In this document: positions 31,811 through 62,005 of the stretch, piece after piece
How the letters are laid out: each line of letters starts with the position of its first letter
Numbering within the stretch: the stretch's first letter is position 1
NCBI GenBank assembly: GCA_002840905.1
Contig: PHDD01000014.1
Location: forward strand, 1 to 64,000
Length of the DNA stretch: 64,000 nt
Reading direction: 5' to 3'
Source of the DNA: Bacteroidetes bacterium HGW-Bacteroidetes-4
Lineage (GTDB): Bacteria > Bacteroidota > Bacteroidia > Bacteroidales > SZUA-534
The notes under the pieces: generated by a model
Database searches by the model: none
Told to the model about the DNA's origin: nothing
The model's input: the letters and a program-made list of their open reading frames with translations, nothing else
Program-made: the position numbers and the translations under genes

Positions 31811-31843
31811 AAAAGCCGCTCTGGCTATAAGCTGAAGCGGCGT
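31811..31843 (-). terminator. Rho-independent terminator of the SusC-SusD-GHL10 operon
   Basis: Minus strand: GCCGCT-loop-AGCGGC followed by TTTTTATT, just after the stop at 31868. Confidence 0.72.
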
Positions 31844-31867
31844 TAAGAATCTAAACCTATTATTTAT

Positions 31868-34915: not shown

Positions 34916-34965
34916 TCTATAAACACCCATTTTTAATATTATTAATTTAATCTGTAGTTATCCAA

Positions 34966-36477: not shown

Positions 36478-36494
36478 GTTTTTTATTTTTTCAA

Positions 36495-39400: not shown

Positions 39401-39734
39401 TTTTAATTCCCAATGCTGTAACTACTACAGCATCCAATTCATGAACCGACGGGCTTAAAGCAACCCGAATACTATTTTTTCCGGAAATGTTAACCTCAAC
39501 CGTTTCGTAACCAATAAAAGAAACAACGAGGGTGTTAGCTCCAGCCGGAATGCTGAGTGCAAACTTCCCGTCCAAATCGGTAATTGTGCCTTGCGATGTG
39601 TTTTTAACAACTACCGTAGCTCCGATGAGTTCCAGTCCATCGTTATCTACAACGGTTCCCACCACAGTTCGCTCCTGGGCAAAAACTGTGATAAAAGTAA
39701 TGAACAGCCATAGTGTTATTAGTGTTTTTTTCAT
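36495..39734 (-). CDS. SusC/RagA-family TonB-linked outer-membrane protein
   Basis: Carboxypeptidase-like domain 'VVGTVVDNDGLELIGATVVVKNTSQGTITDLDGKFALSIP', plug 'VVTALGIKKEKKALGYA', 'SISPDDIETMSVLKGPNAAALYGSRAATGVIMITTKKG', C-terminal beta-barrel ending in F. Confidence 0.96.
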   Translation of the reverse strand: MKKTLITLWLFITFITVFAQERTVVGTVVDNDGLELIGATVVVKNTSQGTITDLDGKFALSIPAGANTLVVSFIGYETVEVNISGKNSIRVALSPSVHELDAVVVTALGIKKEKKALGYAFADVSGDELTTNRDVNFINSISNKIPGVNITQTAGGAGTSSRIIIRGIKSISGNSQPLIVVDGVPMDNSSDGASWLGGLDYGNSLSSISPDDIETMSVLKGPNAAALYGSRAATGVIMITTKKGTKRDQMKVTFNSNFMIDKPYIVAKYQNEYGAGFGGVIQKNKLSPETYESLAPEDQQKVIVETDSITGLPVYSAYYNYGTGSWGPKMDGSFEILDWNNKFAPYVAQPDNVKNYFNTGYTFTNSISLEKGTEAFNWRMSLTDLQNKGLKPNSHYDRTSINYIMSSKMNDYVTASFKANYIREDAFNRVGQGDSRTGARTFIWMPRSINMSTLRDYYKDENGFEQNWYPDDPWHTNPYWEAYENYNNDFKDQFTGYVKLDFNINSWLSAYVRSSMDTYLSKRYNRIANNAVRAIGQGQYTEQWINYKSMNHEFLLSAKRDLNDEFKLSGNLGGNWYDYHVDMQSTTIYGLAVPNFFSLNNAKNPDETSVGSTVKNKQIHSLFGSVQMEYKNWWFLEFTGRNDWSSTLPLNNNSYIYPSVNSSIVFTDALGIENNILSFGKIRGSFAYVGNDPDPHQLSRSYINQQYGDLPAIYLRPSLTNNNLKPEETGSWEVGTDLRFFQNRVSVDFSYYNEINHNQIVSAELSRSSGLATVLTNGGKVANRGIELQFNATPIETPDFKWNFLFNYAKNKNEVLSLADGLPFITVTVESQVDIVALPGQPYGDIIGTGLTRYYKTDVNGNIVDDPNNGRPLVDEQGMYVMSDRKVIGNVMPDWTGGITNSLKYKNLSLMFSIGIQIGGDIFSKTNKYGLDNGQFEETLEGRESWYAATNAERQAGTAGYVADGVLADGTENTRGIDPQVYFHQRKWGGIAELDVYDASYVKLRDLTLNYDFPEYWFENFFVKQASLSFVAKNLWLIYSGVPNIDPESSFTSNNNGLGQEYAAMPHARSFGFNLRVVF

Positions 39735-43215: not shown

Positions 43216-43246
43216 AAAAGAGCAGGCTATTTAAACCTGCTCTTTT
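43216..43246 (-). terminator. Rho-independent terminator after the 1367-aa gene
   Basis: AAAAGAGCAGG-CTATTTAAA-CCTGCTCTTTT. Confidence 0.85.
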
Positions 43247-43256
43247 AATATCTGGA

Positions 43257-46200
43257 TTAATTTTTAACAATCCGTTTCACAGCCGATTGGCCATTTGAAT
43301 CAACAGCTTGAATCATGTAAACACCAGCTTTAAATGAACTCATATTTAATCTCATTTCGCTTAATCCGGCATTTTCCTGAGTCATAATTATGCGACCGGT
43401 AAAGTCAACTACCTGTATCCTGGTTACATTATCAGTTCCTTTAATGGTTAACTGATTGTTAACCGGGTTTGGATACATTGAAATAGCAGCTGCCAGGTTA
43501 TCGGCAACACCAACAGGCTTAACAAGCACAAACGCTGATAATACAGGTTCACCAACCAGGAAGTCGAGACCGCCTGATACAGCAACCGGAGTTACTTCAA
43601 AGGCAACAAATTTGTCTGTCATCTCGGCATCAACCACCCATGAATCGGTAGTTGCACCCAGTATTTTCAGTTTATCTGTTCCTTCAGCATCGGTTGCATA
43701 CCACCATTGGTATTTGCTTCCACCTTCCAGGTCACCATCAGCATCAGTATAAGTGTATGAGCCCTCAAGTGTTATTCCCACAACCGGATTACCAACAATA
43801 GCAACATCGGTAGCCGTAGGAGCCGCAACTCCTACAATATTTACTACTTCTTCAGCTTCGAAAGCACTTAATGGCATAGCATCAAAAGCAGCAGTTGTAC
43901 CGGTACCATCGTAAGCAATGGTAACAGCCTGGCCATTGGTAATTGCTGTGGCCAATTCAAAGGTTACCACATTTGCATCGGTTCCTGTTCCGTAAAGGGT
44001 ATCTATGGCAATCTCAACATCATCAGCCATCACGGTCCATCCGGTAGAAATACCTAAAGAATCGGGCATGTTTTTGCTAAACCATACAAATATCTTATCT
44101 CCCGCATCATTGGTTTCAGCGTACTCAAACATTGGTAATTCAAGCAGGCCTTTAAAGCGGGCAATACCTTGGTTGGCACTTAACATATAAATGTGGAAGA
44201 ATTCTTCATCGGCTTCAACATGTACCCCACCTAATTCCTGATTTGCAGTTGACATGGTTTCGGATACACCAACTGTTACATAAGGAGCAGTAGTAATATC
44301 TTTAACTATGGTGTTCCATACGCCCGCGTCGTTCTTTTGATAGAATGCGGCCAACGTACGTCCTTTGTATGTAAAGACATTGGGTGAGTTCGACTGGTTA
44401 TTAGTCATTCCAACACCTTCAATAGCACCCAGGTACATGCCGTCTTTATCAAAAATCTGCGGTTGCATACCCCGTCCGTCAACCAGGAATTTGGAATCGG
44501 CACTCGCCTCGAATGGAGCAACAGCTGCGGTAGAACCAATTGAAGTGGTATTCTGAAGTTCGATTACTGTAGGATCTCCAACAATACCTCCGGTTACCAC
44601 CCAACGAATTACATATTTATTGGCTGATGCAGCAGCAAATATTACCGCATTGCCTGAAACATCGCCTTTAACGGTAAACTTATCGCCCAAACGCATGGGT
44701 ACTGTACTTGTAAACTCAATCCACTTAACAGGGGCTGCCAATTCATCGGTCCATTTGTAAATTACAAAAGGAGCTCCACTGGCATCGGTTACTAATGGAC
44801 AAGCTAAAATCTGACCATCATCGGATACTTCAACATCGCTAATTTTGAACAAACCTGCATCCATTCCCTCGGTATTCATCTGAGCAACTTCAGAACCACT
44901 GGTTTTGTCGAGCACAACCAGCTTGGTACCACCCAAACGGCTGGCCAGATAAATATGATCAGTTCCTAAAGCAAATCCTCGTTCGGTGCTTCCTGTTCCA
45001 ATATATGAAGGAACAGCAGCCATCTTTGCTCCACGCATCCATACGCGTTCAAAGTCGCCATCATTAGTTGATTCAATGGTTGCGGCACTTGAAACAGCAT
45101 CAACAGCTTCACCGGTTAATAAACCTCCTGAAACAGCTACCGGAGTAACTTCAAAAATCAGGAATTTACCAATCTGGGCATCAGTAACCAGGAAATCTTT
45201 ATGGTTTGCACCATCGATGACGGTTTTATTGGTTCCGGCTGCATCGTCGGCAACATACCATTTAAATAATGATGCGCCTTCAGGATCGTCGGTATAATCG
45301 AAATAGGTATATTTTCCATAAACCACGGCACCCACTTCAGGATTACCCACAAATGCTACATTTTGAGCTTCAGGAGCACCTTCTGGTGGAGCAGGAGCAA
45401 TAATACCTGTGGTATCGAAAGCTTCAACACCGTTTTCATCAGCTACTGTAACAGGTAATACACCAAAGAAAATGTATTTATCCTGATCGGCAGCTACCAA
45501 TTGATACCTGTTGGTGTCGTTCGCAACGGCAGTTTTAATTCCATCCACTGCATCGGCACGATACCAGGTTAATACAGTATTTCCCTCTTCGTCTTCATTC
45601 AAGTCAGAATAAGTGTATGACCCGGTTAAGATACGTCCAACTTCCTGAATACCTGAAATAGCTACATTTTTAGCTTCAGGCACATAAGCCGGGAAAACCA
45701 CAGCAGTAGCCGTTGCCACTGCAACAGAATCGCCCGTTGAGAAGTTTGGAGAACTTGAAACAGGAATTACGCTAAATAAGATAAACTTACCTTCGTCGGC
45801 AGGAAGCGGCATGTATTTCAATGTATCTTCAGCCACTTTAACTGCATTTGTTCCGGCTGCATCATCAGCACGCCACCATTTCAGAATTGATTCTGCTTCG
45901 GTATCGCCATCAGCATCGGTAAAGGTATAAGATCCGGTTAACAAGCCGTAAACATTAGGATCTCCTGCTATTACCAAATCAGAAGCCACCGGTTTAACTG
46001 CGGTTGAAGTTACCGGACCATAATAACCCGATTCAACCCAGTTGGTTTCGGCAGATAGAGTTCCAGTTTTAGCCACAGCCAATACACTAAACGACAGGTA
46101 TTTATTCAGATGCTCATAAGCAACGGTTATTTCAGCATCGGTAGCAAATTCTGTTTTATTGGTTCCCTGATTGTCATCAGAAACATACCATTTATAGAGT

Positions 46201-47360
46201 GAAGTATCTTCTTCATCACCATTCACATCAATATAGGTATAACTCACCTGAGCGTTTGACCCCACCATGGCAAAACCAGTCATCATTAGGTTGGTTGCCA
46301 AAGGAGCCGCTTCAGGCGCCAGAGCTTTGATGTAATTTCCACCTGATAATGAATAAATAATATAGGTGTCAGTAAAAGGATAAGATACTACCACTTGTTC
46401 TTGTCCATTACCATAAACATGAGGCCATACACTTTCCAACACTGGGGCAGTGCCTTCAATTTCAACCACATCGGCAACAGTAACGTCTGATAAATCGGCG
46501 GCTTTCCCGGTAATATCAATTAAAAGAATTTTTCCAACGTTTGAAACAACTAAATAGTTTTTATCTCCCGAAGCAAATTCCTTTACATCCTGATTTACAC
46601 CAGTAATAACGCCTGCAGGAATTTGAGCTACAATATTACCGGTTCCGTTAAACTTAACAGGTCCGGTAAGTTCTACGTTATTATACCAAAAACCATCGGT
46701 AATTTTAGTTCCCAGCGCCTGAACAGTAGGGGTTCTGACAGCTCCAAGACCAGTTAAATCCAAAGTATTAACAGCTCCCAAAACTCCATTAACCACTTCA
46801 AAATAGTATACCTTGGGAACATTTACAAAAGGTATAATTATCAAAGCTTCAGTTTGAAAATCCCCAAAAACACTAAAAGAACCGCCAAAATCATCGGCTG
46901 TACCTGAAGCATCTTTCCACAATAATTCTGGAACTGCATCTTCGTCCGCCCAATAATACAATTGAACAGGATTAAATTGATTGCTTGTACCGGTAGTAGC
47001 AAATAATGCTCCGCCATCGTCAACTTCCACGTCCCGAATACCATAACCCCAAGCGGGATCCAGCACTGTAGAAGGACTGATTGTCTTAATCAACTCTCCA
47101 GTAGATCCATCCAGGATGCGAATCATATTATCTTCAGCAACTGTTGAGCCATCGCCAGTATAAGCTCCTTCTGTCCCGGCCACATACAAATGATTGTTCT
47201 CGGGATTAAAATCCATTCCACGGTAATACCGATCGGCATTCCATGTATAATCTGTATTTGTTTTCTTCCACAGCTCGGAAGGCTGCGCATGGGCTATCAG
47301 GTTCCCAAAGAGGAACATGATAAGCAACAAACTTGTAAAAAATGTAGTTTTTCTTTTCAT
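43257..47360 (-). CDS. T9SS-secreted DUF4623-like beta-propeller protein with five tandem Ig-like repeats and a SwmB-like domain
   Basis: Signal peptide; five copies of 'P.A.NV.I.G.P.VG..L.GSYTYTDADGD.EG.S.YKWY.ADDA.GTNK....' ; 'FEYAETNDAGDKIFVWFSKNM' SwmB-like; C-terminal 'MYPNPVNNQLTIKG...GVYMIQAVDSNGQSAVKRIVKN'. Confidence 0.75.
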   Translation of the reverse strand: MKRKTTFFTSLLLIMFLFGNLIAHAQPSELWKKTNTDYTWNADRYYRGMDFNPENNHLYVAGTEGAYTGDGSTVAEDNMIRILDGSTGELIKTISPSTVLDPAWGYGIRDVEVDDGGALFATTGTSNQFNPVQLYYWADEDAVPELLWKDASGTADDFGGSFSVFGDFQTEALIIIPFVNVPKVYYFEVVNGVLGAVNTLDLTGLGAVRTPTVQALGTKITDGFWYNNVELTGPVKFNGTGNIVAQIPAGVITGVNQDVKEFASGDKNYLVVSNVGKILLIDITGKAADLSDVTVADVVEIEGTAPVLESVWPHVYGNGQEQVVVSYPFTDTYIIYSLSGGNYIKALAPEAAPLATNLMMTGFAMVGSNAQVSYTYIDVNGDEEDTSLYKWYVSDDNQGTNKTEFATDAEITVAYEHLNKYLSFSVLAVAKTGTLSAETNWVESGYYGPVTSTAVKPVASDLVIAGDPNVYGLLTGSYTFTDADGDTEAESILKWWRADDAAGTNAVKVAEDTLKYMPLPADEGKFILFSVIPVSSSPNFSTGDSVAVATATAVVFPAYVPEAKNVAISGIQEVGRILTGSYTYSDLNEDEEGNTVLTWYRADAVDGIKTAVANDTNRYQLVAADQDKYIFFGVLPVTVADENGVEAFDTTGIIAPAPPEGAPEAQNVAFVGNPEVGAVVYGKYTYFDYTDDPEGASLFKWYVADDAAGTNKTVIDGANHKDFLVTDAQIGKFLIFEVTPVAVSGGLLTGEAVDAVSSAATIESTNDGDFERVWMRGAKMAAVPSYIGTGSTERGFALGTDHIYLASRLGGTKLVVLDKTSGSEVAQMNTEGMDAGLFKISDVEVSDDGQILACPLVTDASGAPFVIYKWTDELAAPVKWIEFTSTVPMRLGDKFTVKGDVSGNAVIFAAASANKYVIRWVVTGGIVGDPTVIELQNTTSIGSTAAVAPFEASADSKFLVDGRGMQPQIFDKDGMYLGAIEGVGMTNNQSNSPNVFTYKGRTLAAFYQKNDAGVWNTIVKDITTAPYVTVGVSETMSTANQELGGVHVEADEEFFHIYMLSANQGIARFKGLLELPMFEYAETNDAGDKIFVWFSKNMPDSLGISTGWTVMADDVEIAIDTLYGTGTDANVVTFELATAITNGQAVTIAYDGTGTTAAFDAMPLSAFEAEEVVNIVGVAAPTATDVAIVGNPVVGITLEGSYTYTDADGDLEGGSKYQWWYATDAEGTDKLKILGATTDSWVVDAEMTDKFVAFEVTPVAVSGGLDFLVGEPVLSAFVLVKPVGVADNLAAAISMYPNPVNNQLTIKGTDNVTRIQVVDFTGRIIMTQENAGLSEMRLNMSSFKAGVYMIQAVDSNGQSAVKRIVKN

Positions 47361-47394: not shown

Positions 47395-48819
47395 TTATTC
47401 TATTATTAGTTTTTCGACACCTATTTTATTACCGTAAACCACCTGATACACATAAGTACCTGGTGCCAACCCGGCTGTATTTATTTCCATTTCCTGTGAA
47501 CCACCCATTGCCCTGTCGGCTGTTATTCCCATAAAACGCCCGCTTAAATCGAACACTTTTACAGAAACTACCCCACTTGCATTTTGTGGCAACTCAAAAC
47601 GAACTTTTGTGTAATCGTTTGCAGGATTTGGGAAAGCAGAAAGTTTGAAAGCTGAAGTTTGTTCCCGTTTAATTGAATTTGCCTGAATTCCGTCAATTCG
47701 ATAGGCTGCAATACCATTTGAAGGGGCACAAACAAAAATATGCAATTGATTATCTAACACACCAAAATCAACAGCTCCTTCGCCATAAGCATTATCGAAT
47801 TTTGTTCCAAAAGTGGGCGTGAATCCTATTACATCAGCATCGGTAACATTCTCGCCGTGTTTTGAGATATTAAAAACAAAAGCGCTTTGGTCGCCACTAA
47901 ACATTCCCATATACAATGAGCCTCCAAATTCAAAAGTACGTCCAGCCAAAACCGATGAGGGAAATAATCCGGGTGAAAAAGCAACCTGAGTTAGATTGAC
48001 ACCACTGGTGGTAAACAAAGTGGGCAAAAAGCCTTTTCCACTCACATACATCCAGTCATTTTTTCCCGGAACACCGGCCACTGTAGGCGAGGTTCCTGCG
48101 TTAGTGATATCAGCCAGAGTAATAATTTGGGGTGCGGCATCAACAATACCTGCAGTTACTTTCCAGCGCATTACCTTGTTGCTTTCACCTGGAGCGGCAT
48201 AAATATAAGCTTCGGTATCCCAGTTACCAATAACACTGAATTTATCTCCCATACGGTATCCTCCTTCAGTATAATTAATAATCATGGTTGGTATATCCTG
48301 TTCCCAACTCCATCGGTAAACCCGAAATGCTTTAACAGTTACTGAGCCATTTTCATTAGGAATATCAGGACCTGTAGCTAAGGTCATATTGCAGGCAAAA
48401 ATACTTCCATCTTCAGTACAAACTATATTATTTAAGGGGTATCCTCCCCCATAATTCTGATCAGATGAAGTTATTCCTGCAGTTAAAAGTTTTGAAACAC
48501 TAAATGCAGGAGCTTGCCCTGTTAAAGGATCCAAAACGTAAACATGTGGTTCACCGGTATCTAAAACCCCATTATCATCCGTATCCTCGGCATGGCGACT
48601 CGAAACGTATAAATGACCTGAGTATTCGCTGTAGGCAATACCACGTTCTACGGCAGCATAAGCAGGACTACCATCGTCAACTTCAGAGCCATCGGTAAAC
48701 CATACCGGGGCATTTTCTCCGTAATGCGCCCAAATTTCAACAAAAGCCGTATCCTGAGCGGATAGTTTTGTGAAAATTGCAGCGATTACAATAAAAACAA
48801 AGAGTACAAGTTTTTTCAT
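47395..48819 (-). CDS. T9SS-secreted DUF4623-like beta-propeller protein, paralogous to the 1367-aa product
   Basis: Shared motifs ('YRMGDKFSVIGNWDTEAYIYAAPGESNKVMRWKVTAGIV' versus 'MRLGDKFTVKGDVSGNAVIFAAASANKYVIRWVVTGGIV'); C-terminal 'AFPNPANDYTKVRFELP...GTYVYQVVYGNKIGVEKLIIE'. Confidence 0.75.
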   Translation of the reverse strand: MKKLVLFVFIVIAAIFTKLSAQDTAFVEIWAHYGENAPVWFTDGSEVDDGSPAYAAVERGIAYSEYSGHLYVSSRHAEDTDDNGVLDTGEPHVYVLDPLTGQAPAFSVSKLLTAGITSSDQNYGGGYPLNNIVCTEDGSIFACNMTLATGPDIPNENGSVTVKAFRVYRWSWEQDIPTMIINYTEGGYRMGDKFSVIGNWDTEAYIYAAPGESNKVMRWKVTAGIVDAAPQIITLADITNAGTSPTVAGVPGKNDWMYVSGKGFLPTLFTTSGVNLTQVAFSPGLFPSSVLAGRTFEFGGSLYMGMFSGDQSAFVFNISKHGENVTDADVIGFTPTFGTKFDNAYGEGAVDFGVLDNQLHIFVCAPSNGIAAYRIDGIQANSIKREQTSAFKLSAFPNPANDYTKVRFELPQNASGVVSVKVFDLSGRFMGITADRAMGGSQEMEINTAGLAPGTYVYQVVYGNKIGVEKLIIE

Positions 48820-48969
48820 AAATCATTTTGTTTTATTGATTAGTAATTAGCTTGTTTGTAAAACCAGCAACCAAAAACATTGTTGCTGCCTCAATAATTT
48901 GAGCTATTGGGATAAACTTTTTAGCGTTTATTGCAACTTTTTTAGAGTCCATTAGCTTTGTTTTGTATT

Positions 48970-48983
48970 TTTGTATTACAAAT
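48970..48983. promoter_or_regulatory. Candidate FadR/GntR-type operator: TTTGTATTACAAAT
   Basis: Core TTGTATTACAA fits the FadR-subfamily consensus TNGTNNNACNA; lies upstream of the minus-strand operon starting at 48819. Confidence 0.5.
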
Positions 48984-49132
48984 TTACATTTTTTTGTGAA
49001 GCACCTAACATTTTTTCATTTTTTTTATCATACATCCTACTCTTTGATAAAAATAATGTCGCAAAATGGTCTTCTGTTTAAAAAACAATCAATTACAATT
49101 GGCTGATACACAAAAATTAAGGTTATTATTGC

Positions 49133-49146
49133 ATTTGTATGACAAA
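49133..49146. promoter_or_regulatory. Candidate FadR/GntR-type operator: TTTGTATGACAAAT
   Basis: Differs from the 48970 site at one central base; TTGTATGACAA fits TNGTNNNACNA; lies upstream of the 49291 GHL10 gene. Confidence 0.5.
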
Positions 49147-49290
49147 TACAAGGTGTTTTTTCACCTGCTGTGCAACACACTATTATACTATGAATGATGT
49201 ATGACCTATTGTTTATATTGTTATAATTTTGTTGGAATCAAGCCTCTTTTTATTACAAAAAATGAATTATTACTCAAAAAAATATGCTTT

Positions 49291-50784
49291 ATGAAACGAT
49301 TGTTTATAATCCCTTTACTCTTTTATTCCTTTTCTCTTTTGGCTCAAAGTCCTAAATATGAATTTAGGGCCGTATGGGTTTCAACAGTAGCAAACATTGA
49401 CTGGCCATCGAAAACTGGACTTACCAATGAACAACTCAAATCAGAAGTTATCAGAATCCTTGACAAGCAAAAAACCCTGGGAACCAATGCCATCATTCTG
49501 CAGGTTCGTCCTACCAGCGATGCTATTTACCCTTCAGAACTGGAGCCCTGGAGTCGTTATTTATCCGGCAAACAAGGCCAGGCTCCTGAATATAGTTTTG
49601 ATCCGTTGCAATTTTGGATTGAAGAGGCACACAAGCGCGCCATGGAACTTCACGCCTGGTTTAATCCTTATCGAATTCAACAAAACATTAACGATGAGCT
49701 GGTAGAAAATCATATTTTTAAACAGCATCCTGATTGGGGATGGGTTTATGGCAATCGCAGCTATTTTGAACCTGGCAATCCGAATGTCTGGGATTTTATT
49801 AGCAAAGTGGTTACTGATGTGGTTTCCCGATACGATGTTGATGCCATTCATTTTGATGATTATTTTTATCCCTATCAGGTAAACAAAGAAGAATTTCCCG
49901 ACTCATTAGCTTTTAAAAAGTTTGGCGGCAATTTTTATCCTGACAATTTGCACGCCTGGCGTCGCCATAATGTTGATACCATCATTCAAATTCTTAGTTC
50001 AGCTATAAAAAATGAAAAGCCCTGGGTAAAATTTGGAATAAGCCCATTTGGTGTTTGGCGCAATCGCTCGCAAGATATATTTGGTTCGGAAACTTCTGCA
50101 GGAACTACAAACTACGACGCCCTTTATGCTAATATTATTAAATGGCAACAAAACGGTTGGGTAGATTATACCATGCCGCAATTGTATTGGCGTGACGATC
50201 ATCCTGCAGCAAATTTTACCACCTTAGCCTATTGGTGGAGCGACTTTACATTTGGACGGGCGATGTATCTGGGATTAGCCCCTTACCGGATCGATAAAAA
50301 ATCGGATCACAAACTATGGCGAAAACCTAAATACTTTATAAAGCAAATTGAATTACTTCGTCAAATTGAAGGTATCGACGGATTTGGATATTTTAGCAGC
50401 AAACATTTTTTTAGAGAAGATTTTAAGCGCCTCAATAAAAAACTGCAAACCAAACTTTGCGTAACCCCAGCTATTGTGCCTCCCATGCCGTGGATTGACA
50501 ATCAGGCGCCATTGCCACCGGTTAACCTCACTTTGAATGGAACCACATTGTACTGGACCGCAAGCGAAGCTTCCAACGAATTTGATAAAGCCCGGTTTTA
50601 TGTGGTTTACTATTTCCCAACAAAACAGATAAAGCAGGTTAAAGATGACAGGTATATTATTTATAGTACCGGTGAATTAAAATACACTTTTGACAAGCTT
50701 CCTTCTGGTGGAGTAATTCGTGTAACATCGCTCGACCGGCTGAATAACGAAAGCCCGCTAAGCGATCCTATTGTTTTTCCTTAG
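49291..50784 (+). CDS. GHL10/YngK-DigH-like glycoside hydrolase with signal peptide and no T9SS tag
   Basis: 'MKRLFIIPLLFYSFSLLAQSPKYEFRAVWVSTVANIDWPSKTGL...ILQVRPTSDAIYPSELEPWSRYLSG...RAMELHAWFNPYRIQ...VDAIHFDDYFYPY'. Start moved from 49201 to the ATG preceding the signal peptide. Confidence 0.9.
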   Translation: MKRLFIIPLLFYSFSLLAQSPKYEFRAVWVSTVANIDWPSKTGLTNEQLKSEVIRILDKQKTLGTNAIILQVRPTSDAIYPSELEPWSRYLSGKQGQAPEYSFDPLQFWIEEAHKRAMELHAWFNPYRIQQNINDELVENHIFKQHPDWGWVYGNRSYFEPGNPNVWDFISKVVTDVVSRYDVDAIHFDDYFYPYQVNKEEFPDSLAFKKFGGNFYPDNLHAWRRHNVDTIIQILSSAIKNEKPWVKFGISPFGVWRNRSQDIFGSETSAGTTNYDALYANIIKWQQNGWVDYTMPQLYWRDDHPAANFTTLAYWWSDFTFGRAMYLGLAPYRIDKKSDHKLWRKPKYFIKQIELLRQIEGIDGFGYFSSKHFFREDFKRLNKKLQTKLCVTPAIVPPMPWIDNQAPLPPVNLTLNGTTLYWTASEASNEFDKARFYVVYYFPTKQIKQVKDDRYIIYSTGELKYTFDKLPSGGVIRVTSLDRLNNESPLSDPIVFP

Positions 50785-51008: not shown

Positions 51009-51731
51009 ATGGACGATATATTTCAGAATCTGGGCAACAGACAAACCTTAAGCCAAAAAATTGAAAGGACCATCGAAAATGCCATCCGCGAGAAAAAGCT
51101 TTTGGTAGGCTCAAAACTCCCTACTGAGCGTGAAATGTGTGCGGCTTTTGGGGTAAGTCGTACAGCTTTGCGTGAGGCCTTACGTCGATTAAGTGCCCGG
51201 GGGCTTATCAATATTCAAAAAGGAAGTGGCATGTATGTTTCTGAAATACGTATTGAGGATGCCATAAATACCCTGAACTTGTATTACGATCTCAAATTCG
51301 ACAACAATTTGTTATCACAAATTATTGAAGTTCGCCGTTTATTTGAACCTGAAATTGCTAAGCTGGCTGCTAAAAACCGTTCTGAGGAGAACATTAAAGA
51401 ACTCGATAAAAACCTTGTTGATTTTAAAAAATGCAACCACGACAATACGCAATTAGAAGCCGATTTAGATAATAAGTTTCACCTGATAATTGCCAAATCG
51501 TCGGGCAATCCCATTATGCAAATTACCATGGAACCCATTTATTCGCTGCTTCCGCGGATGCGTAATTATATTTACGGAAACATTGAAGGAGAAAAAGAGA
51601 ACACCTTAAAATTACATGCCCTAATTATTGAAGCCATCCGTAAAAAAGATGTGAATGAAACCTACAATCTTATGAAACAACACCTGGATCGAACACAGGA
51701 AATTTACGATAAACACTTAAAATTCTTTTAA
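51009..51731 (+). CDS. FadR-subfamily GntR transcriptional regulator (wHTH + FCD)
   Basis: 'IREKKLLVGSKLPTEREMCAAFGVSRTALREALRRLSARGLINIQKGSGMYV' followed by FCD 'EVRRLFEPEIAKLAAKN...FHLIIAKSSGNPIM...HALIIEAIRKKDVNETYNLMKQHLDRT'. Confidence 0.93.
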   Translation: MDDIFQNLGNRQTLSQKIERTIENAIREKKLLVGSKLPTEREMCAAFGVSRTALREALRRLSARGLINIQKGSGMYVSEIRIEDAINTLNLYYDLKFDNNLLSQIIEVRRLFEPEIAKLAAKNRSEENIKELDKNLVDFKKCNHDNTQLEADLDNKFHLIIAKSSGNPIMQITMEPIYSLLPRMRNYIYGNIEGEKENTLKLHALIIEAIRKKDVNETYNLMKQHLDRTQEIYDKHLKFF

Positions 51732-51789: not shown

Positions 51790-52608
51790 TTACACAGTTT
51801 TTATATTCTGATAATTCTCAATAGCATTGCGAACAGAACCATGCAATAAGAGCAAACGTTTTGATTCATCAATACTCAAACCCAATTCATCCATTATCAT
51901 TCGGGAACCTCTTTCAATCAGTTTTTTATTGGTTAACTGCATGTCAATCATTTTATTTCCTTTAACCCGGCCCAGTTTAATCATAACCGAAGTGGTTATC
52001 ATATTCAATACCAGTTTTTGAGCAGTTCCGGCTTTCATGCGGGTACTACCGGTTACAAACTCAGGACCAACAATGGCTTCTAAAGCAATATCCACTTCTT
52101 TTGCCAATTGGGTTTCAGGATTACAGGTAATGCAAGCGGTAAAAAGCCCCGATTTTCGGGCTTCACGAACTGCACCAATAACATAAGGAGTTCGTCCCGA
52201 TGCGGCAATGCCAATAACCGAATCGTTAGCATGGGGTTCGTATTGCGCCATATCGCGCCAGGCTCCCTGTTCATCATCCTCGGCCGACTCTACTGCTTTG
52301 CGAATGGCCTGATCACCACCTGCAATCAAACCAATAACAATATCGTAAGGAACGCCAAAAGTAGGCGGAATTTCTGAAGCGTCAACAATGCCTAAACGGC
52401 CGCTGGTTCCCGCTCCCACATAAAACAATCGCCCCCCTTTTTTAATTCGAGGTATAATTTGATCAACTACTCGCTCAATTTCGGGAATAATTTTATTCAC
52501 GGCCATATGCACAGTACTATCCTCCCGGTTAATATTCTCAAGCAATTCCTTAACCGTCATTTTTTCCAGATTGTCGTAGCGCGACGATGATTCTGTAATA
52601 TTTATCAT
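51790..52608 (-). CDS. murQ: N-acetylmuramic acid 6-phosphate etherase
   Basis: 'GGRLFYVGAGTSGRLGIVDASEIPPTFGVP', 'VIGIAASGRTPYVIGA', 'GPEFVTGSTRMKAGTAQKLVLNMITTSVMIKLGRV'. Confidence 0.96.
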   Translation of the reverse strand: MINITESSSRYDNLEKMTVKELLENINREDSTVHMAVNKIIPEIERVVDQIIPRIKKGGRLFYVGAGTSGRLGIVDASEIPPTFGVPYDIVIGLIAGGDQAIRKAVESAEDDEQGAWRDMAQYEPHANDSVIGIAASGRTPYVIGAVREARKSGLFTACITCNPETQLAKEVDIALEAIVGPEFVTGSTRMKAGTAQKLVLNMITTSVMIKLGRVKGNKMIDMQLTNKKLIERGSRMIMDELGLSIDESKRLLLLHGSVRNAIENYQNIKTV

Positions 52609-52614: not shown

Positions 52615-53466
52615 CTAATTCTTGCTTTTTATGGTTTTATGATAGGCCACTAAATCGTCAATGGGTGATTGCACAACTCTGGGTGTTTCAAATCCTTTAG
52701 CTATCATAACCTGATTTAGAACTGCGTTAAAATGAAAAGCTATGGAACCGGCAAAAACAACCGGTAGTTCCTTGCTATGTGGTAGCTTTAGAATATTTTT
52801 AACTACAAAATCTTCCAGTGAATCATAAACTAGCTTATATATCTCCGGCTCATTAAGTTCCGCTTTTAACAAGCGCGTTAAAGATGCCAGGTAACGATTG
52901 GGTAAGGGTTTTTTATACACACTTTCAATTATGGTGTTTAAATCAAATTCACCCAATTTAATAAGTTTCTGAGACAGTTCCGGAGAAAAATCGCGTTTTA
53001 GTAAGGCATTGATAAAACGCTTCCCCATATAGGCTCCGCTTCCCTCGTCACCCAAAATATAACCCAAAGCAGGTATTTTATCAACAAGCTGCATTCCATC
53101 GTACATGCAGGAATTGGAACCCGTACCTAAAATACAAGCGATACCCGGTTTAGTTCCCAGCAAAGCTCTTGCAGCAGCAAGCATATCGTCGTTGATAAAG
53201 ATTTGAGTATTTTCTCCAAAAAACTGAACAAATATTTTAAGCAAGCCCTCTTTAATCTGATTATTTGCCAAACCAGCACCATAAAAGAAAACTTTCTCGA
53301 TGGAGCTTCTATACATATTAATGTCTGACTCAGTTAAGACCCGAATAATTTGATCCTTTTCTGAAAACAAGGGATTTATACCAATGGTGGTTAACGACAG
53401 GGTTGAATCACCGTTTATCAATCGCCAATCGGTTTTGGTCGATCCTCCGTCTGCTACTAAAAACAT
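52615..53466 (-). CDS. BadF/BadG/BcrA/D-family amino-sugar kinase (MurK/GlcNAc-kinase-like)
   Basis: 'MFLVADGGSTKTDWRLI', 'GIACILGTGSNSCMYDG', 'LGYILGDEGSGAYMGK'; 6 nt from murQ. Confidence 0.85.
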   Translation of the reverse strand: MFLVADGGSTKTDWRLINGDSTLSLTTIGINPLFSEKDQIIRVLTESDINMYRSSIEKVFFYGAGLANNQIKEGLLKIFVQFFGENTQIFINDDMLAAARALLGTKPGIACILGTGSNSCMYDGMQLVDKIPALGYILGDEGSGAYMGKRFINALLKRDFSPELSQKLIKLGEFDLNTIIESVYKKPLPNRYLASLTRLLKAELNEPEIYKLVYDSLEDFVVKNILKLPHSKELPVVFAGSIAFHFNAVLNQVMIAKGFETPRVVQSPIDDLVAYHKTIKSKN

Positions 53467-53616: not shown

Positions 53617-53678
53617 ATTTTGCATTTTTGAATAATATGCCTTACTTTTGGAGGGCAAAATTTGATAAAAATTCAGCA

Positions 53679-56600
53679 ATGAGATTACTAAAAACCCCTG
53701 TTTTTTTAAGTATCCTGATTATTTGCTCAGTCTTTTTAAACAAGGCGTTTGCTCAAATGCCGGCCTTACCGCACCGCAGCCCTGCCTATTCAATAATTGA
53801 ATCGCTTACCAACCAGCATATCAACAGTACATTGCTCAATTATAAAACCGGTTACTATAAAAAAGACTCCACAAAAATTGACACCATTATAATTGATGTA
53901 AAAAAGAAAACTATTGCGGTTTATTTTGATAAAAACCTTGCCAATGCTCCGTTCAGGCCTGAAACAATTAACTGGCTTGAAACGGAGGCAAAAAAAGCAC
54001 TGGGCGAGTTGTATGATAACTACAACATTGAATTCTTTACTAACAAAAAATCGTTTAAATCATACATTCCCAACTACTACAGAACTTCAAAAAAGGATAT
54101 CGATAAAACCAGAATTCCAAATAAGTTCAATCGCAATTCAAATCCATTGGTGCATAACAACTCAAAACCTGAGGAATATGAACCCATATTACAAGCTATA
54201 AATATTGCACTGTGGCACAGTCATGGTTGGTATTACGAACTCACGCTCGACAGGTGGGAATGGCAAAGGGCGCGCTTGTTTCAAACCGTTGAAGATTTAA
54301 GTACCATGGCCTATGTGCTTCAGGGAGTGGTTCCCATGCTCGAAAATGCTGGAGTTCAGGTATTCCTTCCCCGTGAACGTTCTTTTCAAACACACGAGGT
54401 TATTGTCGATAATAATGGAAGTACAGGAAATAGTATTTATCGCGAAAACATAAAATCAAAATCAGAAAATTCTGGTTTTGCCATAGGCAATCCACCTTAC
54501 ATTACTGAAAATCCATTTAAGCTGGGAACCTATACCCAATTTACCTCGCACAAACAATCGATGGAATTTATTGAATGGATTCCGGAGATACCTGAATCGG
54601 GCAAATACCCGGTTTACATTGCTTATCATCATCAAAAAGAGAATTCCGACAAAGCACAGTATAAGGTACATCACACCGGAGGAATTACTGAGTTTGATGT
54701 GAATCAGCAAATAGGTGGAGAAACCTGGATTTATCTGGGCACTTTTCATTTTAATCGGGGAATTCATGCCGACTCCGGTAAAGTAGTACTGACGGGAAAA
54801 ACAACTAAAAATAACCAAAACCTCACGGCCGATGCCGTTCGATTTGGTGGTGGAATGGGAAACATTAGCCGGAACGGAAAAACAAGCGGCCGACCGCGCT
54901 ACCAGGAAGCTGCCCGATACTACTTACAATATGCGGGCATGCCCGATTCGCTGGTTTGGTTATTGAACCGCGAAAAAGAAAACGATTACAGCGACGATGT
55001 TCAAAGTCGTGGTGAATGGTTGAATTACCTGATGGGAGCTCCGGCAGGTCCCACAAAAAACCGGAATATTCCCGGATTGCAAATACCGGTTGATTTGGCG
55101 CTTGCTTTTCATACCGATGCAGGAATTGCTGGTTCTGACAGTGTGATTGGTACGCTGGGAATTTACAGCACAACCCAGGGTAATCCCGCTTTCCCCAATG
55201 GGATTTCGAAAATGGCATCGCGCGATTTGACTGATTTGATTCAAACCCAATTGGTAACCGATATTCGACAAAAATACGACACCAGCTGGATTCGTCGTGG
55301 ATTGTGGGACAGGGCTTACAGTGAAGCGTTCCGTCCCAATGTACCCACCATGCTGCTCGAATTGCTTTCGCATCAAAACTTTTTAGATGCCCGCTTTGGC
55401 TGGGAACCCATGTTCCGCTTCGACGTTTCGCGGGCTATATACAAAGGAATTCACCGGTTTTTATCTGTTCAATACAATATTCCGTATGTAATTCAACCCT
55501 TACCTGTTTCCCATTTTAACTTACAGATAAAAAACAACAACCAACTCGAACTGAGCTGGAAACCCGTTAGCGATCCGCTGGAACACACCGCTGAACCGGA
55601 AGGTTACCTGGTTTACACCCGAAAAAACGGACAGGGCTTCGATAACGGACAATGGACCGATAAACCGTTCTTCCTGATTTCGAATCCTGAACCTGAAACC
55701 ATTTATTCTTTTAAAGTAACCGCTGTTAATAAAGGTGGTGAAAGCTTTCCATCGGAAATACTTTCAGCCGGAATTGCTGAAAATGCACCCGGAACCGTTC
55801 TTATTGTCAATGCTTTTGACCGCATAGCAGGTCCGGCAGCGTTGGATGAAACCCGAATGGCGGGATTCATTAACCGAATGGACGAAGGCGTTGGATACCA
55901 TGCAACTATTCATTATACGGGTTCGCAATACGATTATGACCGGAATTCTCCCTGGCTCGATGACGATTCACCGGGGTTTGGTGCTTCGGGAGCCGAAATG
56001 GAAGAAAAAATCATTCCCGGAAATACCTTCGATTATAGTTTTGTTCATGGACAATCGATTCTTAACGCGGGCTATAGTTTTGTTTCCATAAGCGACGAGG
56101 CGTTTACCGAATCGTTAACAGAACCTGAAACTTATTTTATGATAGATTTTTTGGCTGGCGAAGAAAAAACACATTACCTGCCCAAAAACGATTCTGTTGC
56201 CCATTTCACTCTTTTTTCCGATGAATTGCTGAAAAATTTACAAAGCTATCTGAATCAGGGAGGTAATTTACTAATCACCGGAGCGCACATTGGCAGCGAT
56301 GTAAAACTCAATCAACAGGATTCATTGATCGGGGCAGCCTTAAAATTTAAATGGCGAACCAATCACGCATCGCGCCTGGGTAAGACTTATTTTACCGACA
56401 CCTCGTTAGCCACACAACTTAACGGCTTACAGTTTAATACCTTTTATCATCCACTGATTTACAAGGTGGAATCGCCCGACGCTATTGAACCTTACAACAA
56501 TTCGTCGAAAACCATTATGCGCTATGCTGAAAATAACATGAGTGCAGGAGTTTTATACACGGGAAATTATAAAGTTGCTGCCTTTGGCTTTCCGTTTGAA

Positions 56601-56681
56601 ACCATTCTGCTAAAAAACGATAGGGATGCTTTTATAAAATTGATTATTAACACATTTACAAAAGAAACAAATAAACAATAA
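53679..56681 (+). CDS. Exported Amidase_3-like N-acetylmuramoyl-L-alanine amidase with inserted golvesin/Xly-type domain and C-terminal FN3-like domain (often annotated 'xanthan lyase')
   Basis: '[57 protein letters not shown]', '[13 protein letters not shown]', '[22 protein letters not shown]'; insertion '[23 protein letters not shown]...[16 protein letters not shown]'. Start set at [26 protein letters not shown]. Confidence 0.82.
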
Positions 56682-56701
56682 ACCTGAAAAACAAACTATT
56701 T

Positions 56702-58165
56702 ATGAAAACCATTACTTGTTTTATTCCCTACCAGACTCCCGAAATTTGGGAAAATTTTTTGAAGGATTTAGAGCAAAACGATCATATAAAAACCATTTAT
56801 TTATTAGGTAAGCCAGATGCAAAAACCCAATGGAATAAAGCAAAAGCGCTGAAAACTGAGAGCATTTCTAAAACAACTACTTTAAAAAAAACTGCCGATG
56901 TTGTAGATACCGATTACGTGCTTTTAATTACTAAAGAAACCGAAATAAAACTGGGCCAGTTTGCCCTGGAACGTTTTATCAGTATGGCTGATGATACCGG
57001 CGCCGGGATGGTTTACTCTGATTACCTGCAAGTTGCCGATGGCAAACAAAGCAATCATCCGGTAATTGATTACCAGGAGGGCAGTTTACGCGACGATTTC
57101 AATTTTGGCCCGCTTTGGTTTATCAACAATGACGTTTTTAAGAATGCTGTAAACAGTTTTAGCGAGTCCTATGATTTTGCCGGTTTGTATCAACTTCGTC
57201 TGGCCATTAGCCGAAATCAGGAATTATTTCACATTCCTGAACCGCTCTATTCACAAATTGAATGGGATACGCGTGCTTCAGGAAAAAAGATTTTCGATTA
57301 TGTTGACCCAAAAAACCGGCAGGTTCAAATTGAAATGGAAAAAGCCGCAACTACACATTTAAAAGCCATCGGCGGATACTTAAAGCCTGATTTTAAAGCC
57401 GTAAACCTTAACGAAGGTAATTTTCCGGTGGAAGCTTCGGTTATTATCCCGGTTCGTAACCGAGAAAAAACCATTGCCGACGCCATTGATTCGGTGATGA
57501 AACAAAAAACGCGTTTTGACTTCAACCTAATCATTGTTGATAATCATTCAAGCGATCGAACCACTGAAATTATTCAATCGTATGCAGCAAAATACAAAAA
57601 CCTGATTCATGTTATTCCCGAGCGCACCGATTTGGGTATTGGTGGCTGCTGGAACCTGGCTGTTCATCACGAACTTTGCGGAAAATTCGCCATTCAGCTT
57701 GACAGCGACGACCTTTACAAAGACGAAACCACCCTGCAACAAATTGTGGATACTTTTTACAAAGAAAAATGCGCTATGGTGATTGGCTCGTACCAAATGA
57801 CCAACTTTAAGTTGGAAGAAATTCCACCGGGATTAATTGACCACAAAGAATGGACTCCCGATAACGGACGAAACAATGCATTGCGCATTAATGGATTGGG
57901 TGCTCCACGAGCTTTTTATACTCCGGTTTTCCGAAGTATTAAAATACCCAATACCAGTTATGGCGAAGATTATGGTTTGGGACTGGCCATCAGCCGACAT
58001 TATCAAATTGGCCGAATATATAACTCCCTTTACCTGTGTCGCCGATGGGAGGACAATTCCGATGCTTCGCTCAGCATTGAAGCCATGAACAAACACAATT
58101 ATTACAAAGATAAACTGCGCACCGTGGAACTTAAAGCGCGCATACAACTAAATAAGAGCAAATAA
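56702..58165 (+). CDS. Glycosyltransferase family 2 protein with an extra N-terminal GT-A-like module
   Basis: '[48 protein letters not shown]...[20 protein letters not shown]'; no signal peptide or TM. Confidence 0.83.
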
Positions 58166-58220
58166 CCTAAGCATTGGAAAGAAACAATTATAAAAACTGC
58201 ATTTATCATTTTATCATTCA

Positions 58221-59168
58221 ATGAATTACCAAAGCAAATCAAAAAATTTATTTCTGGAACAAAAGACCAATTGGCCGCTACTGGCAGCCAATACAGAAGG
58301 TTTAAAAAATGTACAGCTCAAAACTTTTGTGTACGATGGTTTTCAGATAAACCTACAATTTAATCCTAAGCGGATTACCTCATCGGCAGCAAAAGTGGAT
58401 AAAGCATCGATTGAGGCGCGAAAATGTTTTTTATGTGCCGCAAATCGCCCCAATGAACAGTGTGGTGTTACATTTGAAAATAAATATGAAATACTTTGCA
58501 ATCCCTTTCCTATTTTTCCGGAGCATTACACCATAGCCCACAACGAACATATACCGCAGGAAATAAAGCATTCGTTTGCCGATATGTTAGCGCTGAGCAA
58601 AGCACTCCCCGATTTAGTGGTTTTTTACAACGCCCCAAATTGCGGGGCTTCGGCTCCCGACCATTTACATTTTCAGGCCGGAAACACGGGCTTTTTACCC
58701 ATTGAAAAAGAGATTGAAACACTTAAAACAACCTATGGTAAAACACGAATCAAAAAGTCAGGTCTTGAACTTACAGCCATTAACGATGGTTTGCGAAAAA
58801 TGCTTGTGCTGGAATCATCAGAAAAAGATTCGTTGATAAAAGCTTTCGAGCCTTGTTATGAATTTACCAGCAGACTGGTTCACAACCAAGACCCCATGCT
58901 TAACATACTGAGCTGGTACAGCAATGCCTGGCGTGTAATTATTTTTCCCCGCGAAAAACACCGCCCCTGGCAATATTTTGAAGAGGGCGAAAAAAACATC
59001 CTTTTAAGTCCGGCTTCGGTCGATTTTGGGGGAACCCTGATAACTCCACTGGAAAAAGATTTTACAAAAATCAGTCGTGACGATATAAGCAACATCATGC
59101 AACAATTGACCCTTAACGATAAGAATTTCGAAGAACTGACTGATTATTTAAAAAAAAACATTAAATAA
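58221..59168 (+). CDS. DUF4922 / HIT-like nucleotidyl phosphorylase (GDP-hexose or Ap4A phosphorylase-like)
   Basis: 'CFLCAANRPNEQCGVTFENKYEILCNPFPIFPEHYTIAHNEHIPQ' and histidine-triad-like 'NCGASAPDHLHFQAG'. Confidence 0.75.
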   Translation: MNYQSKSKNLFLEQKTNWPLLAANTEGLKNVQLKTFVYDGFQINLQFNPKRITSSAAKVDKASIEARKCFLCAANRPNEQCGVTFENKYEILCNPFPIFPEHYTIAHNEHIPQEIKHSFADMLALSKALPDLVVFYNAPNCGASAPDHLHFQAGNTGFLPIEKEIETLKTTYGKTRIKKSGLELTAINDGLRKMLVLESSEKDSLIKAFEPCYEFTSRLVHNQDPMLNILSWYSNAWRVIIFPREKHRPWQYFEEGEKNILLSPASVDFGGTLITPLEKDFTKISRDDISNIMQQLTLNDKNFEELTDYLKKNIK

Positions 59169-59173
59169 GCAAC

Positions 59174-60085
59174 ATGATTTCGGTGCAAAACTATACCGAC
59201 CCTTACTTTCAGCAAGTGTTGGATTTACTCAACCAAAGCAAGTCCTTCGACAGCTTTACCGAGCCCTTGCTTAAAGAAAAAATGTACGACGACCCAACCT
59301 GGAACCCGGAACACACCTGGATGGCTTTGCATAAAAGTAAAGTAATTGGCTTTATGCAAGGTGTTACCCGAAACATTCGCGGTTCAAAATTGGGTTATAT
59401 CAAGTTAATGGCTGTGCACCCCGAATTCCGGCGTCAGGGAATTGCATCAAGGCTTTTTGAACTTTTGGAAAAGCAACTCAGTGAATTACAAATGGAAGCC
59501 CTGCGGATTTACGATGTCCCCCTTAATTATTTTATGCCAGGTATCGATCCCCGGTACACCCCGGCTGTTTGCTTTGCCGAGAAAATGGGATTCAAAAAAA
59601 CGGGCGATGCCATTAATATGCAGGTTGATTTAATGGCTACAGATTGGGATGCATCAGAAAAAATAGCCGAATTAAAAAAAGCATCCATTGAAATTAAACG
59701 GGCAACATTAAACGACAAAGAAGAACTTTTCGATTTTATTTCAGAAGATTGGATGCTATGGCAAAATGAGTTGGAAATGGCTTACCGATTTGCTCAACCA
59801 GCTATTTTTATTGCCCGGCAAAATGGCAGACTTAAAGCCTTTGCAGCTTACGAAGGAAACAATCAGGGAACGGGTTGGTTTGGTCCCATGGGAACACATC
59901 GCGACTTACGCGGAAAAGGTGTTGGCAATGTTCTCCTTTATCTTTGCCTGTCCGACATGAAGCATCAAGGACATACAAGCGCCACCATTCCCTGGGTTGC
60001 CCCCATCGCTTTTTATTCACATTATGCAAATGCAGTTATCGACCGGGTTTTCTGGCGCTACGAAAAAAAACTAAAAAATGAATAA
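59174..60085 (+). CDS. Double-domain GNAT N-acetyltransferase
   Basis: 'LGYIKLMAVHPEFRRQGIASRLFELLEKQL' and second module 'GTGWFGPMGTHRDLRGKGVGNVLLYLCL'. Confidence 0.86.
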   Translation: MISVQNYTDPYFQQVLDLLNQSKSFDSFTEPLLKEKMYDDPTWNPEHTWMALHKSKVIGFMQGVTRNIRGSKLGYIKLMAVHPEFRRQGIASRLFELLEKQLSELQMEALRIYDVPLNYFMPGIDPRYTPAVCFAEKMGFKKTGDAINMQVDLMATDWDASEKIAELKKASIEIKRATLNDKEELFDFISEDWMLWQNELEMAYRFAQPAIFIARQNGRLKAFAAYEGNNQGTGWFGPMGTHRDLRGKGVGNVLLYLCLSDMKHQGHTSATIPWVAPIAFYSHYANAVIDRVFWRYEKKLKNE

Positions 60086-60611
60086 TCACATACTTTTTAT
60101 CGGCGATAGCCTTACGCAATGGGGTAACTGGAACGAATTATTTCCACAATTTACCATTGAAAACCTGGGTCTTGCCGGCGATAAAACCATCGACATTATA
60201 CAACGGATGCCGCTTTACCAAACAAAACAAGCCACAACCATTTTTTTGATGGTTGGAATTAATGATTTAGCCAATGGAATACCCGTTGCATCGATACTGA
60301 TGAATTATAATACGTTGCTTAACCAAATGCATCAATACTGGCCAACGGCAAAAATACATCTGTTGAGCTTGCTTCCTGTTGAATACGAATCGTTTACCCA
60401 TACAGCCATCTATCCTCAAAATGTAGAAAAACTAAATGCTGGAATTGCGACTTTGGCGAACGAAATAAATACTTTTTATGTTGATATAGCTCCTGCTTTT
60501 TCTAATGGAAATGGAAATTTAAACCCAATGTACACCTACGATGGCCTACATTTGAATAATGCGGGATATTTGGTATGGAAAAAGGAAATTGAGACTTACT
60601 TACAAAATTAA
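60078..60611 (+). CDS. SGNH/GDSL hydrolase, no signal peptide
   Basis: 'ILFIGDSLTQWGNWNELFPQFTIENLGLAGDKTIDI', 'FLMVGINDLANG', 'YTYDGLHLNNAGYLVW'; overlaps the GNAT gene by 8 nt. Confidence 0.86.
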   Translation: MNNHILFIGDSLTQWGNWNELFPQFTIENLGLAGDKTIDIIQRMPLYQTKQATTIFLMVGINDLANGIPVASILMNYNTLLNQMHQYWPTAKIHLLSLLPVEYESFTHTAIYPQNVEKLNAGIATLANEINTFYVDIAPAFSNGNGNLNPMYTYDGLHLNNAGYLVWKKEIETYLQN

Positions 60612-60620
60612 TTACAGCCT

Positions 60621-61946
60621 ATGGAATCGTCACCAAACATACAAATTGGCATAGTAAAACGCGATAAACTGAGTTTTAAACTGGCCGGAAAATTTAAAAT
60701 TTCAAATACCGGTAAGAATTGCTTCAATGTTTGCCAGGCCGGCATAAAAAACGGAGCTATTGAACTTACCACTGAAAACGGAACACAAACATTTACGAAA
60801 GAAGTAAGTTTTCTTCCCTGTAACCTTTCGGCCGATCATTTTGAAATAAAAGCGGTTACCATTGGAATCGATTTTCATTGGGAACAGGAAGAAGATCAAA
60901 GGTTTCAGGGTGCTTTAAAATTATTGGTTCTCGATGGCGCCATTCAGGCTATAAATGTTTTACCCATCGAAAACTATCTGGTCAGTGTAATTTCGTCGGA
61001 AATGAGTGCCAACAGTTCACTAAGTCTGTTAAAAGCTCACGCCATTATTTCGCGTAGCTGGTTGCTTGCACAAATTGAAAAACAAAAAAACCTAAGCAAA
61101 AAAGAAAAAGTTTATAAGCCCATCCAACAAACCGATACTGAATACATTCGTTGGTACGATCGCGAAGACCACAAGCATTTCCACGTATGTGCCGACGACC
61201 ACTGCCAGCGCTATCAGGGAATTACCCGGGCTCATAATCCACAGGTAATAAAAGCTGTACAGGAAACTATGGGAAAAGTGTTGAAATACAAGGGAGCAAT
61301 CTGTGACGCGCGCTTCTCAAAATCGTGCGGCGGGGTTGCCGAACTTTTTGAAAACTGCTGGGAACCAGTACCGCATGCCTACTTAAGCGCAGTTATTGAT
61401 TCACCTGAGCCCGACAAAATTTCTACATTGGATTTACGCATCGAAAAAAATACAGAGCAATTTATCAATTCCAATCCCAAGGCCTTTTGCAATACCAGCA
61501 ATGTGAAAATACTCAGCCAGGTTTTAAACGATTACGACCAATCGGCCAATGGCTTTTTCCGTTGGAAGCTTGATTATTCCCAGAAAGAACTCTCGGCACT
61601 GGTTCTGCAAAAATCGGGAATCGACTTTGGAACAATAACTGATTTAATTCCTGTGGAAAGGGGAACTTCGGGTCGCTTAATAAAACTCAAAATAATTGGA
61701 ACTAAAAAAGAACTGGTAGTAGGTAAAGAGCTGGAAATTCGCCGCTGGTTAAGCCCTACACATCTTTACAGTTCGGCCATTACCATCGAAAAAACCAATG
61801 CTGATTTTATAATCCGTGGAGCTGGTTGGGGCCATGGTGTGGGTTTGTGCCAAATTGGAGCCGCAGTTATGGGCGAAAAAGGATATTCTTCTGATGAAAT
61901 TCTAATGCACTACTACCCGGGAGCAAACATTGAAAAAACATATTAA
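60621..61946 (+). CDS. SpoIID/LytB-domain protein without an apparent signal peptide
   Basis: 'INVLPIENYLVSVISSEMSANSSLSLLKAHAIISRSWLLAQ', 'VCADDHCQRYQGITRA', 'ICDARFSKSCGGVAELFENCW', 'GAGWGHGVGLCQIGAAVMGEKGYSSDEILMHYYPGANI'; N-terminus polar. Confidence 0.88.
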   Translation: MESSPNIQIGIVKRDKLSFKLAGKFKISNTGKNCFNVCQAGIKNGAIELTTENGTQTFTKEVSFLPCNLSADHFEIKAVTIGIDFHWEQEEDQRFQGALKLLVLDGAIQAINVLPIENYLVSVISSEMSANSSLSLLKAHAIISRSWLLAQIEKQKNLSKKEKVYKPIQQTDTEYIRWYDREDHKHFHVCADDHCQRYQGITRAHNPQVIKAVQETMGKVLKYKGAICDARFSKSCGGVAELFENCWEPVPHAYLSAVIDSPEPDKISTLDLRIEKNTEQFINSNPKAFCNTSNVKILSQVLNDYDQSANGFFRWKLDYSQKELSALVLQKSGIDFGTITDLIPVERGTSGRLIKLKIIGTKKELVVGKELEIRRWLSPTHLYSSAITIEKTNADFIIRGAGWGHGVGLCQIGAAVMGEKGYSSDEILMHYYPGANIEKTY

Positions 61947-62005
61947 GATTATAGTTAATTAAAGTTGAACTTTACAAATAATTAAAACCGGAAACAGAAC
62001 TAAAC

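Follow-up and report, generated by a model that had tools for sequence, protein, structure and literature searches.

Five short GT-N3-AC sites (sites A–E) in a peptidoglycan-sugar gene cluster of Bacteroidetes bacterium HGW-Bacteroidetes-4 are probably operators of the FCD-type GntR regulator encoded in the same cluster (gntR, 51009), which would act as an autoregulated repressor of MurNAc salvage; we put the probability of this reading at about 0.8. The sites, their conservation, the predicted regulon, the sole candidate regulator and its conserved pocket residues were all established by computation. The window referred to below is the complete 64,000-nucleotide stretch of DNA that was analysed.

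Gene cluster and candidate sites

The following genes of the window are relevant to the analysis:

43257..47360, minus strand: T9SS-sorted protein with repeats, second in the minus operon
47395..48819, minus strand: secreted protein with T9SS sorting, first in the minus operon (Pfam sorting domain)
49291..50784, plus strand: GHL10 glycosyl-hydrolase-like secreted protein (Pfam PF02638)
51009..51731, plus strand: gntR, regulator with GntR winged helix-turn-helix (HTH) and FCD domains, proposed binder of sites A–E
51790..52608, minus strand: murQ, MurNAc-6-P etherase (NCBIfam TIGR00274 and PRK05441, above cut-off)
52615..53466, minus strand: BcrAD/BadFG-type sugar kinase, MurK/NagK-like (family match)
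53628..63874, plus strand: closely spaced seven-gene run downstream of site E

For GHL10, the ATG that begins the signal peptide, 49291, was taken as the likelier start; the mechanical open reading frame start, 49201, falls inside site D. For the 47395..48819 gene, labelled DUF4623 in an earlier note on this DNA, Pfam shows a sorting domain only. An inverted repeat, AAAAGAGCAGG...CCTGCTCTTTT (43219-43247), lies just downstream of the 43257-47360 gene and is likely a terminator, which would make the minus unit a two-gene operon. The seven-gene run encodes a Golvesin_C/fn3 protein, a glycosyltransferase, DUF4922, GNAT, GDSL and SpoIID/LytB proteins and, as its last member, an AmpG-like MFS permease. 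The MurK-like kinase and MurQ, separate genes in the window, are fused in many relatives (murQ reading frames of about 550-570 aa in loci L050, L052, L056-L058, L066 and L067). In L050 (288-6598), genes that by eye look like those for AprA and Qmo subunits converge on murQ-kinase, and similar genes are present in L052, L056-L058 and L067; these are unusual neighbours for Bacteroidales. The window also holds a second peptidoglycan-flavoured cluster (29216-39734) with a MurU-like nucleotidyltransferase (30884), SiaC, an aminotransferase, a SusC/SusD pair and a second GHL10 protein at 31868, and no strong operator was found in it.

Candidate sites were scored with model R1, a sequence-only model built from 16 sites of other genomes and excluding the sites of the window:

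48970..48983, no strand assigned: site A, TTTGTATTACAAAT; 12.5-13.0 bits
49021..49040, minus strand: site B, GTAGGATGTATGATAAAAAA; 12.3-12.4 bits
49133..49147, no strand assigned: site C, ATTTGTATGACAAAT, a perfect palindrome; 12.5 bits
49190..49209, plus strand: site D, ATGAATGATGTATGACCTAT, the window copy of the operator GAATGATGTATGACAAATT; 17.0 bits
53599..53619, no strand assigned: site E, TGTAATATGTATTACACATTT; 14.7-14.8 bits
50846..50858, plus strand: site F (tentative), GATGTAATACCTA, upstream of gntR; 5.2 bits

The earlier note had described two palindromes between the T9SS-protein operon and GHL10 as FadR-type operators. The first is found exactly at the given position (site A), and the second, TTTGTATGACAAAT, is likewise present, albeit at 49134-49147 rather than 49133-49146, within the full palindrome at 49133-49147 (site C). 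Both match TNGTNNNACNA. That description of the divergent region was nevertheless incomplete, as two further GT-N3-AC sites, B and D, had been overlooked, and both are better conserved than site C. Alignment of the region with two same-genus genomes revealed three main conserved islands, corresponding to A, B and D: site A is kept in both relatives and site B is a 20-bp block fully conserved in three species, while no counterpart of site C was found by alignment in the same-genus loci L047 and L048. Apart from site D, no sequence in the genome comes within two mismatches of the operator. Site E separates the minus-strand kinase-murQ operon from the plus-strand run at 53628-63874; the segment TGTAATATGTATTAC within it is invariant in three species, and the element also occurs upstream of murQ in L049 in an intermediate form, ATGTAATATGTATGACATAT. 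A GTATGAC site precedes gntR in L047; the weakness of site F (5.2 bits) makes autoregulation in the present species tentative.

It should be noted that R1 includes the equivalents of A, B, D and E from the two same-genus relatives, so that its ranking of these four sites is partly circular. Independent tests were provided by a matrix built from out-of-genus sites and by a site at namZ, which is not represented in R1 (see below). With the out-of-genus matrix, the best matches in the 64-kb window were D, E, B and A, in that order. In 48820-49290 this matrix found four non-overlapping sites scoring at least 6 bits; across 1000 dinucleotide shuffles the average number was 0.32, and none had more than 3.

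The footprint accompanies gntR across the order

A single scan of genome contigs yielded 21 GntR orthologs (63-89% identity) from Bacteroidales/Marinilabiliales MAGs, many of them in GHL10-gntR-murQ/kinase neighbourhoods; a 22nd match, at 30% identity, was discarded as spurious. Footprinting across these orthologs gave the operator GAATGATGTATGACAAATT, a GT-N3-AC site with the core [AT]TGTATKAC. Exact copies of GATGTATGACAAAT are found in L049-L054, L056-L058 and L066, and a copy with one base changed in L067. All of them lie in promoter regions that adjoin murQ-kinase, GHL10 or gntR, even where the gap is only 28 bp long. In L056-L058, L066 and L067 the footprint is directly upstream of gntR. 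The GTATGAC/GTATTAC footprint conserved at the promoters of gntR and its predicted targets fits the FadR-subfamily operator rule, TKGT-N3-ACMA (PMC4494728). Among 394 genomes of the order, the footprint 19-mer occurs at up to one mismatch in four; in three of these the genome also carries gntR, no more than 2.5 kb from the site (Fisher p=2e-4).

More distant orthologs (about 63-66% identity), mostly in other genomic contexts, lack the footprint. In three of these loci, L060-L062, a SusC/SusD pair is preceded by GATGTAATACAACATACAAATTAAA; when a looser version of this sequence was compared between 10 gntR-positive and 12 control genomes, it was no more frequent in the former. A perfectly conserved AAAGATGTAATACAACATACAAATTAAA precedes a SusC homolog in L061 (near 10695), L062 (near 15795) and L060 (near 14054), and is possibly the operator of this distant clade.

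The 14-mer through which the two palindromes had originally been recognized behaves differently from the footprint. Exact copies of TTTGTATKACAAAT number two in the 4.32-Mb genome, both at the palindromes themselves, against 0.47 expected by chance under a first-order Markov model. In the genome-wide scan that the earlier note had called for, 15 copies were found at up to one mismatch, as against 15 for the reversed-pattern control. Consequently, the 14-mer string is not the regulon-wide motif. Occurrence at random frequency had been named as the outcome that would speak against the proposal, and for the 14-mer taken alone this is half borne out, there being no enrichment at one mismatch.

A distant match at namZ and a D-lactate dehydrogenase-like gene

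The R1 search of the whole genome scored 150 of 2799 first-look candidates, so that weaker members of the regulon may be missed. Within this set the six best matches were D, C18:82780, E, A, C and B; five of the six, in about 4.3 Mb, thus fall within the gntR cluster. The remaining one, C18:82780 (15.1 bits), falls outside the window by 18.8 kb and lies within a gap of 66 bp that separates namZ, assigned as an exo-muramidase gene on the basis of PF07075/PF20732, from a gene for a FAD/Fe-S oxidoreductase whose solved relatives include the lactate dehydrogenase LctD and D-lactate dehydrogenases (hence D-LDH-like; dld). The same divergent pair is present in four relatives, and the site is kept in all five genomes holding it. 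As MurQ releases D-lactate, a match at namZ/dld is what a MurNAc regulon predicts. Two further matches in the genome were not accepted: C2:195333, in coding sequence, and C25:75208, upstream of an lgt-like gene at 11.5 bits. Seven weaker matches in relatives (12.2-14.0 bits) were likewise regarded as background, six being in coding sequence and the seventh intergenic in genome G002 with no link to the pathway.

Putative operators are in this way predicted at a series of MurNAc-pathway genes: murQ (TIGR00274), namZ (PF07075/PF20732) and those for the BcrAD-type kinase, the AmpG-like permease and the D-LDH-like protein. The control of both divergent units by the nearby FadR-subfamily regulator, as proposed in the earlier note, is well supported by the conservation of the operator beside gntR orthologs, by the co-occurrence of footprint and gene across the 394 genomes, by the gene product being the only FCD-type GntR in the genome and by a best off-cluster match on the same pathway. 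What has changed is the extent of the proposal: the motif is broader than the 14-mer, the key site D had escaped attention, site C is unconserved in the genus, and the predicted regulon reaches beyond the two units to murK/murQ, the AmpG-like permease, namZ and the D-LDH-like gene.

Two readings would sever the sites from the regulator. In one, a different protein binds them and the presence of gntR nearby is coincidental. Other helix-turn-helix families use short palindromes too, and binding by GntR is itself deduced. We consider this very unlikely, given that GT-N3-AC is a FadR-subfamily signature (PMC4494728), that the footprint tracks gntR across genomes, to the point of directly preceding it in five ortholog loci, and that the genome offers no second FCD-type GntR, its other GntR-HTH match being partial (27.2 bits). 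In the other, the conserved blocks are sigma-factor promoter elements resembling TAnnTTTG, and the palindromes arose by chance in AT-rich promoters. Such boxes do abut site A and several of the sites in relatives, and the equal counts of the 14-mer and its reversed control point the same way. Against this, the conserved 19-mer reaches well past TAnnTTTG, occurs in either orientation (as at the namZ/dld sites of genomes G026 and G143) and clusters on one pathway rather than being found at promoters generally, leaving a promoter-element origin highly improbable. Operators of the GntR protein thus remain the preferred reading of sites A–E.

Promoter geometry and direction of control

The sites were compared with the position of the -7 box, which has the consensus TAnnTTTG (PMC9723704). 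On the murQ side, the box TAAATTTG abuts the operator core in L052, L057, L058 and L066, while the -7 box of GHL10/gntR begins exactly 19 bp after the start of the core in L050, L051, L053 and L056. With both arrangements placed around the core, one dimer could block both promoters. The core-abutting arrangement is seen in the window for the T9SS-protein operon, as site A adjoins, on the minus strand, the -7 box TAAATTTG (48979-48986). The core of site D begins 25 bp upstream of the -7 box of GHL10 (TAATTTTG, 49224-49231). The predicted promoter geometry hence favours repression.

The same operators and regulon could alternatively serve an activator, or a protein that represses some promoters and activates others. 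Some FadR-subfamily regulators are known to play dual roles; moreover, site E is upstream of the predicted -33 element of the 53628 run, and sites B and C are far from predicted -7 boxes. The overlap with -7 or -33 elements at A, at D and at the murQ and GHL10 promoters of relatives favours occlusion instead, and activation or dual control is accordingly regarded as unlikely, repression being preferred.

The regulator and its predicted effector

The product of gntR contains a GntR winged HTH (PF00392, 73.3 bits; cut-off 27) and a C-terminal domain matching both FCD (80.4 bits) and FadR_C (28.5 bits) above cut-off. It is the only FCD protein of the genome, which contains one other GntR-HTH match. 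Among curated NCBIfam models the best is NanR, at 146.4 bits and below its cut-off of 260, followed by LldR and GlcC. In NanR, the E. coli sialic-acid repressor of the GntR/FadR subfamily, Zn is bound by Asp172, His176, His222 and His244, and the Neu5Ac carboxylate is held by Arg128 and Arg203 (PMC8012715). The equivalent metal and carboxylate residues, taken via homology to NanR structures 6on4 and 6wfq, are D154, H158, H203, H225, R109 and R185; none of the six varies among the 22 sequences compared (one sequence is truncated), while most other ligand-contacting residues of NanR differ. The regulator thus shares with NanR the Zn ligands and both carboxylate arginines, and NanR likewise governs the catabolism of an N-acetylated sugar acid (PMC8012715). 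The two systems differ in that the NanR operator consists of (GGTATA)n direct repeats instead of a single GT-N3-AC dyad, and in that murQ/murK, not nan genes, adjoin the regulator here.

The effector is expected to be a carboxylate of the pathway, namely MurNAc, MurNAc-6-P, anhMurNAc or D-lactate. The list of candidates in the earlier note is thereby narrowed: GlcNAc-6-P is disfavoured, as it is without a carboxylate and both carboxylate-binding arginines are invariant. A reading in which the protein senses lactate released from the wall, with D-lactate and not a MurNAc compound as the effector, is considered rather unlikely. In its favour, the next-best models LldR and GlcC describe alpha-hydroxy-acid sensors, the regulon includes the D-LDH-like gene, and carboxylate and metal residues are kept in the pocket. 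All other targets, conversely, concern the muro-sugar, and the best-fitting model is that of NanR, which binds a nine-carbon sugar acid.

We infer binding, the direction of control and the effector from these comparisons, and the resulting model can be outlined as follows. A GntR dimer would repress divergent promoters by binding GT-N3-AC sites that overlap their -33 or -7 elements. Sites A, B, D and possibly C would control the T9SS-protein operon and GHL10, site E would control murK-murQ and the run ending in the AmpG-like permease, and the site outside the window namZ and the D-LDH-like gene; the regulator probably also controls its own gene. The regulon would comprise release (NamZ, GHL10), uptake (AmpG-like permease), phosphorylation (MurK), ether cleavage (MurQ) and D-lactate oxidation. 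Binding of a small pathway carboxylate (MurNAc, MurNAc-6-P or anhydroMurNAc, or D-lactate) in the metal-containing FCD pocket would relieve repression. More specifically, we lean slightly towards a dedicated FadR/NanR-like Bacteroidota sensor of the lactyl-ether part of peptidoglycan, perceived either as MurNAc species or as D-lactate that MurQ has released. Such a sensor would switch a single regulon extending from the secreted exo-muramidase and GHL10 hydrolase, by way of muropeptide uptake, kinase and etherase, to D-lactate oxidation.

Relation to known systems and implications

The operators of FadR, LldR, PdhR and GlcC have the same core and the same 3-nt spacing as those described here (PMC4494728). 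Statistically, G at the K base goes with an Arg at position 28 of the HTH (PMC4494728). Most half-sites here carry T at that base despite the Arg, which counts against the proposed reading; a different effector and regulon are expected. Control of murQ has a functional parallel in E. coli, where MurR, of the RpiR/SIS family, represses murQP. Its protein family and operator are unrelated, however, and the regulon here additionally includes namZ, the D-LDH-like gene, GHL10 and the AmpG-like permease. Within the same phylum and for the same pathway, the murTKQ/ampG operon of Tannerella forsythia is controlled by GppX (PMC5388701), which is not a GntR protein; it belongs to the hybrid two-component activators and carries an AraC-like HTH.

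The regulator is therefore of a known kind, and it is the regulon that is newly defined. A limited literature search brought up no publication in which murQ of a Bacteroidota member is controlled by a GntR protein, an absence that is not proof of novelty, and the survey of FadR-subfamily operators included no Bacteroidetes regulator (PMC4494728). The proposal would provide a testable cell-wall-sugar sensor for Bacteroidota, for which the literature searched shows only the two-component GppX acting on this pathway (PMC5388701). It would also tie D-lactate oxidation to the breakdown of MurNAc, and give GHL10 and T9SS-secreted proteins that so far have no assigned role a part in peptidoglycan scavenging.
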